NCBI GenBank assembly: GCA_028821605.1
Contig: JAPPFM010000032.1
Span: forward strand, 68,002 to 132,001
Reading direction: 5' to 3'
DNA length: 64,000 nt
From: Candidatus Poribacteria bacterium
Lineage (GTDB): Bacteria > Poribacteria > WGA-4E > WGA-3G
How positions within the stretch are numbered: position 1 is the stretch's first letter; the number at the start of each line of letters is the position of its first letter. Positions 5,839 to 38,492 of the stretch are shown one piece after another. The notes beneath the pieces are model-generated. The model worked only from the letters and a program-made list of their open reading frames with translations. It did not search any database and was not told the origin of the DNA. The position numbers and the translations under genes were made by a program.

Positions 5839-6675
5839 ATGTACAACTTAAATGGAAAAGTCGCTTTAGTAACAGGGGCGGGAGGCAAAAACGGCATCGG
5901 GCGTGCAATTGCGACCCGTTTGGCGAAAGAGGGTGCCGATGTCGCTGTCAACGACATTACCGAGCGTCCGTACGCCGCAGATCAAGCGGATTGGCAAGGC
6001 TTACCCGATGTTGTTCGTGAAATTGAGGCAATGGGACAACGTGCGATCAGCGTCGTTACAGACGTTTCGGATGCTAAACAGGTCCGCGAGATGGTAGATA
6101 AGACCGTCTCGCATTTTGGGAAAATTGATATTCTCGTCAATAATGCTGGCACGATCGCTGGTAAGGATCGCGTGCCTGTCGTAGATCTGGCTGAAGAGGA
6201 TTGGGACAGGGTACAACGGGTCAACGTAAAAGGTGTGTTTCTCTGTTCACAAGCGGTAGCACGTCATCTCATCACGCAGGGAACGGGAGGCAAAATTATC
6301 AATATGTCTTCTGTTACCGGGAAACGGGGATCGGCGCGCTTTGCTGCATACAGTGCCTCGAAATTCGCCGTGATCGGCTTCACACAATCGCTCGCGTGTG
6401 AACTTGCACCCTATCAGGTCAACGTGAACGCCATTTGTCCTGGGCTTGTGGACACAGAGCGATTTGGACATCTTGCATCTGTGCTAATGCCTCAGAATCT
6501 TTCTGCTGATGAACAACTCGCGGAATACGCACGCCGCTCCGAGGCAGCCGTACCCATCGGGCGACTCGCCGAGGCAGCAGATGTCGCCAAAATGGCTGCT
6601 TTCCTCGCCTCAGACGAAGCCGCCTACCTATCAGGGGTTTCCATCACCGTTTCAGGCGGCTCAGTGATGGATTAA
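5839..6675 (+). CDS. short-chain dehydrogenase/reductase (classical SDR)
   Basis: NAD(P)-dependent oxidoreductase of the classical SDR family. The cofactor loop is TGAGGKNGIG (residues 12-21, slightly longer than the common TGxxxGIG), NNAG is at 101-104, and the catalytic residues are S157/S158, Y171 and K175 (YSASK). D39 after the second strand favours NAD. The 278-residue length is normal. The substrate is not evident; enzymes of this kind act on 3-hydroxyacyl, sugar or sugar-acid alcohols. It is transcribed alone from its own promoter, converging with the acetoacetate-decarboxylase-like gene only 3 bases downstream. Confidence 0.9.
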   Translation: MYNLNGKVALVTGAGGKNGIGRAIATRLAKEGADVAVNDITERPYAADQADWQGLPDVVREIEAMGQRAISVVTDVSDAKQVREMVDKTVSHFGKIDILVNNAGTIAGKDRVPVVDLAEEDWDRVQRVNVKGVFLCSQAVARHLITQGTGGKIINMSSVTGKRGSARFAAYSASKFAVIGFTQSLACELAPYQVNVNAICPGLVDTERFGHLASVLMPQNLSADEQLAEYARRSEAAVPIGRLAEAADVAKMAAFLASDEAAYLSGVSITVSGGSVMD

Positions 6676-6678
6676 GCA

Positions 6679-7527
6679 TTAACGTAAGATGCGTTGATCG
6701 CTCAGGTCCTTTCCACCGACGGTCCTGACGATAGATGCGCCACGCCACTCCTTGACTTCCAGCTCATGGAAAGCGTTGACAATGTTATACTGCGTCGGCA
6801 GGTCTTCCCAACGTGCTTTGTGGAATTCCACTGTTCCTTCACCGCGCCAATGCTCCTGCACGACCCGATTTGGTGTGCTTGCAGGTGTTAGCACGGCGTA
6901 AGCAAGGTCGGCAGTCCCCCATTCACCGGTTCTCGGCATATATTTATAGTGGAGCGTGCCGGTGAGTGGTTGTTCACCACTCGTCTGTTGTGCGGGTGAA
7001 GTCGGGGTTGGTATAGGGACTTGCTCTGTCGCTCGGACGTGCATATCCATGAACTTAAAACCGAGCCAACTGGCAGTGCAGTGTGTTTTGCCGTTAAACG
7101 TTAGCGGATCTGGAAGTTCGCAGTAGATTTTGGAGAATCCTAATTCCTCGCGTCCTGTCAAAATCGGATCTGTCAGGTTTTCCCACAGCACCGTCAGGAG
7201 TGATCCAGTCGCCCTGTCTACTTCACCTTCAAAAACCGCTGGGAAACTGACACCGAGGGTATTATAGCCGCGTCCTGCTAACCATTCAATTTCTTTCATA
7301 TAGCCGCCAGACACAGACACAACCGGTTCACCGTTAAGCGAGAAGCCTGGCGGTAGAAAAGCCTCAAGTTGCTCACTGTTTGTCAGGAAACTCACTGAAA
7401 CTGATGTTGATTTCGGATTATCTTTACACTCAAATTTTCTGCCATCGGGTCCAAATCTCGGTCCTGTCCTCGGTCCAAAATGTATCGGCATCCGATACAT
7501 TGCATTCGGATCTAACTTATATCCCAT
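6679..7527 (-). CDS. acetoacetate decarboxylase (ADC) family protein
   Basis: The start is set at MGYKLDPN, behind GGAGGG with a 6-base spacing; the longer in-frame extension to 7641 overlaps the promoter and is rejected. The family signature ILTGREELGFSKIYCE (about 122-137) contains the Schiff-base lysine position K133 and the conserved GREE. True acetoacetate decarboxylases use this lysine to decarboxylate beta-keto acids; many relatives act as hydratases or aldolases on other keto acids, so the exact reaction is open. The adjacency to an SDR is convergent, not operonic. Confidence 0.85.
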   Translation of the reverse strand: MGYKLDPNAMYRMPIHFGPRTGPRFGPDGRKFECKDNPKSTSVSVSFLTNSEQLEAFLPPGFSLNGEPVVSVSGGYMKEIEWLAGRGYNTLGVSFPAVFEGEVDRATGSLLTVLWENLTDPILTGREELGFSKIYCELPDPLTFNGKTHCTASWLGFKFMDMHVRATEQVPIPTPTSPAQQTSGEQPLTGTLHYKYMPRTGEWGTADLAYAVLTPASTPNRVVQEHWRGEGTVEFHKARWEDLPTQYNIVNAFHELEVKEWRGASIVRTVGGKDLSDQRILR

Positions 7528-26513: not shown

Positions 26514-26542
26514 TTGCAAACCTCGTGATTATGTGCTATGCT
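26514..26542 (+). promoter_or_regulatory. promoter giving a leaderless radical SAM mRNA
   Basis: TTGCAA (26514-26519), 17-bp spacer, TATGCT (26537-26542). The expected start point is at about 26549-26550, which is the ATG chosen for the gene; there is no Shine-Dalgarno. Confidence 0.6.
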
Positions 26543-26549
26543 ATTGAGC

Positions 26550-27950
26550 ATGGAAACGGAAACGCGAATCCCCTCAACTATGCACGCCCCCGGCGCAGTC
26601 CTCTTAATCTCCTGCTACGAACTTGGACACCGCCCCGCAGGACTTACGCGTCCACTCCGCGCTCTTGAGGTAGCGGGATTCGTCCCTGACGTAATTGATA
26701 TTGCCGTTGAACCGCTGGACGTTGAAAAAGTCAAACGCGCACGATTTATCGGCATCTCGGTCCCGATGCACACAGCACTGCGACTCGGTGTTCACACGGT
26801 GCAGCGTATTCGACAAATCAAATCGGATGTTTTGATATGTATGTATGGACTTTACGCGACACTCAACGCCGATTATCTACTTTCACAAGGTGTCGATTTT
26901 TGCATCGGTCGCGAAGCGTCAACGCAACTCGTTGAGTTGGTGAAATCCCTTGTAAAGAAAGAGCAAGTTAAGGGACAGGCCGCCGGTTTCCATGCTGCGA
27001 AACTACCGCCGTTAGAGGTATATGCCCAGTTTGAAGACAACGGCGAAACGCGAACCGTTGGGTATACCGAGACAACGCACGGATGCAAGCATCTCTGTAC
27101 GCACTGCCCTATACCACCTGTTTATAAAGGTAGGTTTTTTGCAGTGAAGCGGGAAACAGTGTTGGGTGAAATTCAGAAACAGGTGGCTGAAGGTGCTACG
27201 CATATTACGTTCGGCGATCCCGATTTCCTCAACGGACCGCTGCACGGGCTACGTATCCTCCGCGCAATGCACGAGACTTATCCGAACCTCACCTTTGATT
27301 TTACAACGAAGATTGAGCACATTCTGAAACATAGAGAATATTTCTCTGAATTCGCCGAACTCGGATGTCGATTTGTTATCTCTGCCGTTGAAGCACTAAG
27401 TGAACCGGTGTTAACGATCTTGGAGAAACACCACACACGCGCCGATGTTGAAGCCGCAATTGACATCGTTCACGGAGCCGGTATCGCTCTCCGGCCCACT
27501 TGGGTGCCGTTTACGCCGTGGACAACCTTAGACGACTATCTTGATATTCTCCAGTTTGTTGATACGCATCGTCTTGTCTATCACGTTGATCCGGTGCAGT
27601 ATGCCGTCCGGTTGCTAATTCCGCCCGGTTCATATTTGCTCAATCGTCCAGAGACGAAAACGCTTTCGCTGACACTCGATGAAACCTCTTTCAGTTACAC
27701 ATGGGCGCATCCGGATGCCCGGATGGATGGACTTCATAAAACGGTCAGTACCCTCGTTGAAAACGACGCGCGAACCGATGCGGATGCTTTGGAAACCTTT
27801 TATCGGATATGGGCACTTGCTGCTGATATACAGGGACAGGCTCCGCCAAAACGGAGGAAAGAGACACATCTGCCGGCACCACGAATCACCGAGGCGTGGT
27901 TCTGCTGAGCGGAACCCACCGAGGGGCAGTTTGCCCCAATACATGTTTAA
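26550..27950 (+). CDS. CUAEP-tail radical SAM selenoprotein with B12-binding-like N-terminus
   Basis: Generates a 5'-deoxyadenosyl radical: the 4Fe-4S motif is CKHLCTHC (C-x3-C-x2-C; about residues 179-186 from ATG 26550). The N-terminal ~130 residues resemble a cobalamin-binding Rossmann domain but lack a clear DxHxxG motif. A standard reading stops at TGA 27906-27908 directly after Cys; reading it as selenocysteine gives C-U-A-E-P, the signature tail of a described family of radical SAM (seleno)proteins, and continues to TAA 27948-27950. A SECIS-like hairpin follows at 27923-27937. No function is established for the family. Downstream DUF169 and SDR genes may belong to the same pathway. Confidence 0.85.
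27923..27937 (+). promoter_or_regulatory. bacterial SECIS-like hairpin for selenocysteine insertion
   Basis: GGGGCA-GTT-TGCCCC: six perfect pairs with a three-base loop opening with G, starting 15 bases after the in-frame TGA at 27906. Distance and loop match what SelB recognises in bacterial selenoprotein mRNAs. Confidence 0.7.
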
Positions 27951-27974
27951 GATTGACCTTCATACCGAACGCCA

Positions 27975-28000
27975 TCTAACCGAACCGTAAGGAAAGTTGG
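27975..28000 (+). repeat. recurring leader element, copy 2 (core only)
   Basis: Core TCTAACCGAACCGTAAGGAA, preceded by CTTCATAC as in copy 3. No good gene starts behind this copy; ATG codons at 28002 and 28005 open only very short or overlapping frames. Confidence 0.65.
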
Positions 28001-28059: not shown

Positions 28060-28135
28060 GCGGGTGGACTGGCTATACGGAGAGTGATCTTCATACTAAG
28101 TTTCATCTAACCGAACCGCAAGGAAAATTAAAAAG
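28060..28135 (+). repeat. recurring leader element, copy 3
   Basis: GGCTATACGGAGAG block followed by CTTCATAC and core TCTAACCGAACCGCAAGGAA then AATTAAAAAG, ending exactly at the DUF169 start codon; its AAGGA serves as the ribosome site. A separate 7-bp stem CCACCCG/CGGGTGG (28040-28067) lies at its 5' edge. Confidence 0.75.
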
Positions 28136-28822
28136 ATGTCAGAACAATTACAAGAGTTACTCAGATTGGAAACTACCCCTGTCGCGGTAACATTTCATGA
28201 TGCACAACCGGATGGTGTTTCCCGTGTAGAAAAGGTTGAAGCCTCCGGTTGTACTTATTGGCGACGCGCAGCGGAAGGTAAAACCTTCTATACCGAAGCC
28301 TCCGACCATTACAATTGCCCAATCGGGTGTTATACACACAACGTTGAGTTACCGGATGCACAGATGGAAGAACTCGAAAGCACTCTCGGACTGATGGGAG
28401 AACTCGGCTATATTACTATGGAAGAAGTCCCCAGTATTCCAACACGCGAAACCTCTTTCAAAAGTGCAGTCTACGCTCCTTTAGCAGATGCGACAGGTAC
28501 CCCTGATGTCGTCATCATCTCCGGCACGCCGAGACAAATGATGCTCTTAACAGAAGCCGCAACCGCTGCTGGCATCGGTACTGAAAACGGGGTCATGGGA
28601 CGACCAACGTGTGCAGTCATCCCCGCTGTTATACAAGGTGGACGGAGTGTGAGCAGCTTGGGGTGTATCGGTAACCGCGTGTATACAGCACTTTCCGACG
28701 ATGACTTCTACTTTGCCTTCTCCGGTGAGCACGTTGATATACTCGTCGAAAAGCTGGAGACAATTGTGAATGCGAATCGTGCGTTAGAGGAATATCACCA
28801 GCAACGCCAATCGGAGATTTGA
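28136..28822 (+). CDS. DUF169 family protein
   Basis: 228 residues, opening LLRLETTPVAVTF, a typical DUF169 start. Five cysteines stand in conserved-looking settings: GCTYWRRA (C39), NCPIGCYTH (C61, C65), GRPTCAVIP (C159) and LGCIGNRVY (C177), suggesting metal or Fe-S/haem binding. The family occurs widely in anaerobes and methanogens without an established function. It lies 185 bases behind the radical SAM selenoprotein and immediately before an SDR (ends 5 bases before that ATG), so a joint role in cofactor or metabolite modification is plausible but inferred. Confidence 0.85.
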   Translation: MSEQLQELLRLETTPVAVTFHDAQPDGVSRVEKVEASGCTYWRRAAEGKTFYTEASDHYNCPIGCYTHNVELPDAQMEELESTLGLMGELGYITMEEVPSIPTRETSFKSAVYAPLADATGTPDVVIISGTPRQMMLLTEAATAAGIGTENGVMGRPTCAVIPAVIQGGRSVSSLGCIGNRVYTALSDDDFYFAFSGEHVDILVEKLETIVNANRALEEYHQQRQSEI

Positions 28823-38414: not shown

Positions 38415-38492
38415 TTTTTTAATTTTTCCTTGCGGTTCGGTCAGGTGGGTTTTATTTATAAAGTGCCTCTCCGTAGACCCGCTCTCCAAATG
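38415..38492 (-). repeat. recurring leader element, copy 4
   Basis: Minus strand: GAGCGGGTCTACGGAGAG block, then core CCTGACCGAACCGCAAGGAA, AAATTAAAAAAGG, ending just before the sulfatase ATG at 38400. Confidence 0.75.

Follow-up and report, generated by a model that had tools for sequence, protein, structure and literature searches.

The question raised by this locus is whether a radical SAM gene of a Candidatus Poribacteria bacterium ends at an in-frame TGA or is read through it as selenocysteine (Sec). In the window, meaning the whole stretch of 64,000 nucleotides that was analysed, the forward-strand open reading frame obtained with translation table 11 terminates as ...TEAWFC-TGA, the TGA lying at 27906-27908. 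Read-through past this codon yields U-AEP-TEGQFAPIHV followed by TAA at 27948-27950. An earlier note on this DNA had described a frame ending F-C-TGA and continuing as C-U-A-E-P up to this same TAA, which the sequence bears out, except that ten codons follow AEP where eleven had been counted. An alternative in-frame ATG is found at 26538, while an ATG 452 codons upstream of the TGA is common to homologues L034-L036, L041, L042 and others. The gene and its parts are as follows.

26550..27950, forward strand: predicted CUAEP-tail radical SAM selenoprotein gene, 466 aa with Sec at 453 (NF040546, 617.8 bits).
26598..26940, forward strand: N-terminal Rossmann (B12-binding-like) domain with an invariant SCYELG (Cys22), assigned from a Pfam B12-binding match, an AF2 model and invariant columns.
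27084..27107, forward strand: radical SAM CxxxCxxC motif (Cys179, Cys183, Cys186; Pfam Radical_SAM 44.6 bits; invariant in 49 sequences).
27903..27908, forward strand: Cys452 codon TGC and putative Sec453 codon TGA (TGA in 48 poribacterial homologues, Cys in 20 others).
27909..27950, forward strand: AEP tail (AEPTEGQFAPIHV) and TAA stop (A454, E455, P456 and Q460 invariant in 49 sequences).
27923..27937, forward strand: predicted bSECIS hairpin, stem GGGGC(A)/(T)GCCCC with GU in the loop (fold, covariation and GU-loop conservation).

The read-through protein was matched by NCBIfam NF040546, the CUAEP/CCAEP-tail radical SAM (seleno)protein family, over positions 1-467 of the 468 in the profile and well above the cut-off of 500 bits; the family is therefore already known, as had been stated in the earlier note. 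The C-U/C-A-E-P tail of the family is present as FC-TGA-AEP and, judged by its sequence, the gene is a poribacterial member of this catalogued family. In the literature collection that was searched, no publication on the CUAEP or NF040546 family came up, and the results obtained for CCAEP were unrelated. A 2026 inventory of prokaryotic selenoproteins includes the Sec-containing radical SAM proteins TIGR04167 and TrsS (NF045646), and NF040546 is absent from it (PMC13188914).

A match to NF040546 over the cut-off was found in 48 of 85 Poribacteria genomes, all 48 with one in-frame TGA. The TGA stood at the same position in 29 of 30 fetched poribacterial loci, these being the 29 in which the position was readable. 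As the TGA is present in 48 genomes, sequencing error was rejected, and so was a pseudogene, frame and tail being conserved. In one poribacterial genome the gene is split in two and has an additional TAA (G019:C189:2254-3703), through either breakage or misassembly, and another genome carries two copies (G059:C72 and C105).

Scanning a single genome for each species gave 432 relatives, and the best 80 of these, from about 11 phyla, formed a wider set of homologues. Among these 80, the codon at the Sec position was TGA in 60 and TGT or TGC in 20, with AEP next in all of them. Sec forms in this set belonged to Poribacteria, Planctomycetota, Rokuibacteriota, Methylomirabilota, Tectomicrobia, Acidobacteriota, Gemmatimonadota and Chloroflexota, and Cys forms to Nitrospirota, Ignavibacteriota, Bacteroidota and one acidobacterium. 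Four changes between the Sec and Cys states were placed on a tree of 49 sequences, from which gain and loss are indistinguishable. Alignment with CCAEP homologues, which the earlier note had proposed as a check, thus gave 20 sequences with Cys at the same codon and the AEP tail kept; homologues ending there without the AEP tail were looked for and none was seen among those read.

Were the UGA a true stop, Cys452 would be the last residue and the AEP codons that continue the frame would be a relic or chance. The table 11 frame does end there, and the last block of the AF2 model, with a pLDDT of 54, is of low confidence. Against this, AEP is invariant after the TGA in all lineages and cysteine occupies the codon in 20 homologues. 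Standard annotation truncates the gene, as the table 11 frame and an annotated coding sequence of Thermomicrobium roseum both end at the TGA, and a cut of this kind had been anticipated in the earlier note. The T. roseum Sec form lies at 5944-7380 of its megaplasmid (L133, NC_011961.1); the annotated product, WP_012643191.1, ends at the in-frame TGA and the true product probably continues with Sec-AEP.

Further evidence came from the RNA that follows the codon. A six-pair hairpin with a GTT loop at SECIS distance had been proposed; the segment GGGGCA-GTT-TGCCCC, beginning 14 nt after the TGA, folds in this way and is conserved by covariation. It is present in the lowest-energy fold of the 45 nt beginning at the TGA, at -13.7 kcal/mol, with a z of -2.1 relative to shuffles, which taken alone lends the hairpin modest support. 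A 5-bp stem starting 17 nt from the T of the TGA had 4 or 5 pairs in 59 of 60 Sec genes and 3 in the remaining one, whereas the pairs at the same site dropped to 0-4 in the 20 Cys genes. The stem variants GGGTC/GACCC, GGGCC/GGCCC, GGGGC/GCCCC, GGATC/GATCC and GGACC/GGTCC were interchanged among the Sec genes. In 25 poribacterial sequences, 89.6% of cells were paired as compared to at most 56% when the partner was slid, and stem covariation in these sequences lay above all 500 shuffles. In T. roseum the residues EDPSGP replace EGQFAP, yet GGACCC-GTC-GGGTCC keeps the stem and the GU at the same offset. A search of the 64-kb window against Rfam gave no match.

The GU of the loop was found at the same offset in 60 of 60 Sec genes but in 5 of 20 Cys genes among the best 80 of 432 relatives. 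Likewise, the glutamine codon at the loop was CAG in 60 of 60 Sec genes against 7 of 20 Cys genes (p 2e-10), and CAG made up 54% of glutamine codons across whole Sec genes (p 2e-15); these p-values treat related genes as independent and are therefore too small, while the pattern repeats across phyla. Given the GU loop and the CAG bias of the Sec genes, the sequences point to selection on the RNA at the hairpin site, beyond that on the protein alone. Both the covarying hairpin and this synonymous constraint argue against a true stop.

The organism had been expected to hold selA, selB, selC and selD, and all four were found in the source genome (5.99 Mb, 60 contigs, 98% complete), whose group was recognised as Candidatus Poribacteria from named homologues. 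The scores were 600 bits for selA, 352.9 for selB and 358.6 for selD, and the gene for tRNA-Sec (selC, 78.1 bits) lies roughly 0.3 kb downstream of selB. ARAGORN gave an anticodon of TCA for this tRNA and no tRNA within the window, as tRNA-Sec sits elsewhere in the genome. The selD gene (L012, G000:C30:71300-72223) likewise contains a TGA in frame, close to its start (KCAG-TGA-ASKL), and would therefore be a second selenoprotein gene of the source genome.

Across Poribacteria, selA scored over the cut-off in 72 of 85 genomes, comprising 44 of 48 carriers of the CUAEP gene and 28 of 37 non-carriers. The CUAEP gene is thus patchy in Poribacteria, whereas Sec decoding is nearly general. The carriers in which selA did not reach the cut-off are metagenome-assembled genomes (G062, 96% complete, G015, G030 and G033) of 73-96% completeness, in which selA was probably lost with missing contigs. 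In 39 genomes outside Poribacteria, selA was found in 17 of 19 genomes of Sec type and 2 of 20 of Cys type, with a Fisher p of 5e-7 that serves as a guide only, related genomes not being independent; for T. roseum the search covered its plasmid record. Two genomes, L110 and L125, have selA beside a Cys-form gene, reflecting either recent conversion or mixed bins.

The match between the Sec form and selA across genomes also speaks against termination at Cys452, which we regard as very improbable. Decoding of the UGA as selenocysteine and membership of the gene in NF040546, function excluded, are very likely on these sequence comparisons. The codon at 27906-27908 would be read by tRNA-Sec and SelB by way of the hairpin 14 nt beyond. 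The selenocysteine reading corrects a truncated gene, and Sec decoding is seen in the majority of the genomes of this candidate phylum. The Sec and Cys forms amount to a natural experiment: only genes with UGA at this position retain the hairpin, down to its synonymous codon. On its sequenced megaplasmid, the culture-collection strain T. roseum DSM 5159 has the Sec form.

What the protein does was approached through its architecture, its neighbours and its relatives. The AF2 model (pLDDT 89.8, pTM 0.88) consists of a predicted Rossmann (B12-like) domain and, after it, a radical SAM barrel whose single cluster site is CxxxCxxC. The Pfam B12-binding score of the N-terminal domain, 28.4 bits, was under the cut-off of 32.1, and DxHxxG was not seen in this domain. 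Cys22, Cys179, Cys183, Cys186, Cys452 and Cys/Sec453 were invariant in 49 aligned CUAEP/CCAEP sequences. Structural matches to the model were AprD4, MgmA, OxsB and TsrM at Z 22-24.5, with the MiaB/RimO fold also among the good ones. A PDB search with the protein sequence gave weak MiaB matches and nothing else.

Downstream of the gene lies a likely partner.

28136..28822, forward strand: DUF169 (COG2043) gene in the same direction as the CUAEP gene (Pfam DUF169 103.9 bits).

Louvain clusters of neighbours were impure, and DUF169, Nfu and ATP-grasp neighbours were therefore counted again by profiles. Of the poribacterial loci, 23 of 40 had DUF169 within 400 bp on the same strand, as did 13 of the 41 others; it mostly lies behind the CUAEP/CCAEP gene, and in four Nitrospirales loci it comes first. 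Its Cys39, 61, 159 and 177 were invariant in 38 of 38 sequences. An Nfu-type Fe-S scaffold lay within 400 bp on the same strand in 10 of the 41 non-poribacterial loci, never together with DUF169 in these loci. It is a reasonable inference that DUF169 takes the part of Nfu as an Fe-S protein. An ATP-grasp amino-acid ligase (LAL_C2 domain) was found within 2.5 kb in 17 of the 41 non-poribacterial loci and in none of the 40 poribacterial ones.

A dispersed element of about 75 nt was also observed in this region, at 27955-28000 and 28086-28135 on the forward strand, with further copies on the reverse strand at 38425-38447 and about 18100. Its 5' arm is GTAGCCCGTAATGAAATGGAGGGCGGATATACGGAGAGG and its 3' end, ACCGAACCGCAAGGAAAATTAAAAA, directly precedes start codons; in many copies read, AAGGAA stands as a Shine-Dalgarno sequence with ATG 8-10 nt later. 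One copy is the leader of DUF169. The 16-nt core has 34 exact copies in the genome and 0 in a backwards control, and the element had no Rfam match at gathering score.

The second-best family for the CUAEP protein was ArsL, NF040542, at 310.6 bits, below its cut-off of 450; the third family scored 38 bits. Identity to three ArsL/RCCLKC proteins was 34-38%, identity to ArsL over 403 columns was 33%, and the C-terminal Cys-Cys of ArsL (RCCLKC) aligns with Cys452-Sec453 (FCU-AEP), but across a long gap. For ArsL, transfer of the SAM aminocarboxypropyl group onto As(III) has been reported (PMC8552651). By analogy, the CUAEP protein may form a C-X bond on a soft element held by its tail pair, a proposal we put forward tentatively. 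The C-terminal Cys-Cys or Cys-Sec pair would bind the thiophilic element, be it As(III) or a different soft metalloid or chalcogen, and a SAM fragment would be transferred to that element. Where lineages have an ATP-grasp ligase gene nearby, the ligase would go on to couple the product to an amino acid, and Fe-S clusters would be delivered or mended by the adjacent DUF169 or Nfu protein. ArsL-like chemistry is favoured over the two alternatives that follow because of the ArsL kinship, the alignment of the tails and the ATP-grasp, DUF169 and Nfu neighbours. Counting against it are the long gap in the tail alignment, the lack of arsenic genes among the conserved neighbours of CUAEP genes, the low identity (24%) between the two kinds of ATP-grasp protein, and the poribacterial loci, where no ATP-grasp neighbour was found.

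The first is that the enzyme resembles MiaB or LipA in inserting sulfur or selenium, at the expense of a second Fe-S cluster or of a Cys-Sec persulfide that Nfu or DUF169 then rebuilds. The ten loci with adjoining Nfu would fit such a role, as would a SufS-type gene preceding the CUAEP/CCAEP gene in four non-poribacterial loci, the invariant Cys22 in addition to the radical SAM cysteines, and the MiaB/RimO-type matches in sequence (38 bits) and fold. ArsL is however by far the closer relative (310 vs 38 bits) and a single three-Cys cluster motif is evident, and we give insertion slightly less weight. The second holds that the Cys-Sec pair is a redox pair reducing the substrate or protecting the enzyme, the radical chemistry acting on an ordinary organic substrate. 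Cys and Sec side by side close to the C-terminus are known to form a redox pair, for instance in the mammalian thioredoxin reductase tail, and Cys variants persist in genomes without selA. We consider this unlikely, as it would account neither for the kinship to ArsL and the Cys-Cys tail of that protein nor for the neighbouring Fe-S carriers.

Extended to the family, the ArsL-like reading would place CUAEP/CCAEP proteins at the centre of a small-molecule pathway in about 11 phyla. In this pathway a soft element would be bound by the Cys-Sec or Cys-Cys tail and linked to a piece of SAM through a C-X bond, the product would be coupled by an amino-acid ligase, and DUF169 would replace Nfu as Fe-S carrier. 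This wider scheme is speculative and we give it little weight. The ArsL kinship and the DUF169, Nfu and ligase neighbourhood nonetheless make an anonymous family testable.

Compared with known systems, the protein shows no essential difference from NF040546, matching it over its whole length above the cut-off and having the same tail in a family with both Sec and Cys forms. TIGR04167 and TrsS are likewise radical SAM proteins with Sec but constitute separate families. The solved structures of AprD4, MgmA, OxsB and TsrM share the Rossmann domain and radical SAM barrel, whereas their identity to the CUAEP protein is about 15%, their substrates are other ones and they are without the Cys-Sec tail. 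ArsL, a radical SAM protein of arsinothricin biosynthesis, has the predicted B12-type and radical SAM architecture and C-terminal vicinal cysteines in common with the CUAEP protein, but is without Sec and has a shorter C-terminal region ending in RCCLKC instead of FCUAEP. It is surrounded by arsenic genes (arsQ/arsM), which were not seen as conserved neighbours of CUAEP genes; in the window, the neighbours are DUF169, SDR and dimethylformamidase-like genes. The ArsL clusters of Priestia and Alicyclobacillus hold an ATP-grasp gene, as do the surroundings of many non-poribacterial CUAEP/CCAEP genes, the two ATP-grasp proteins being 24% identical.
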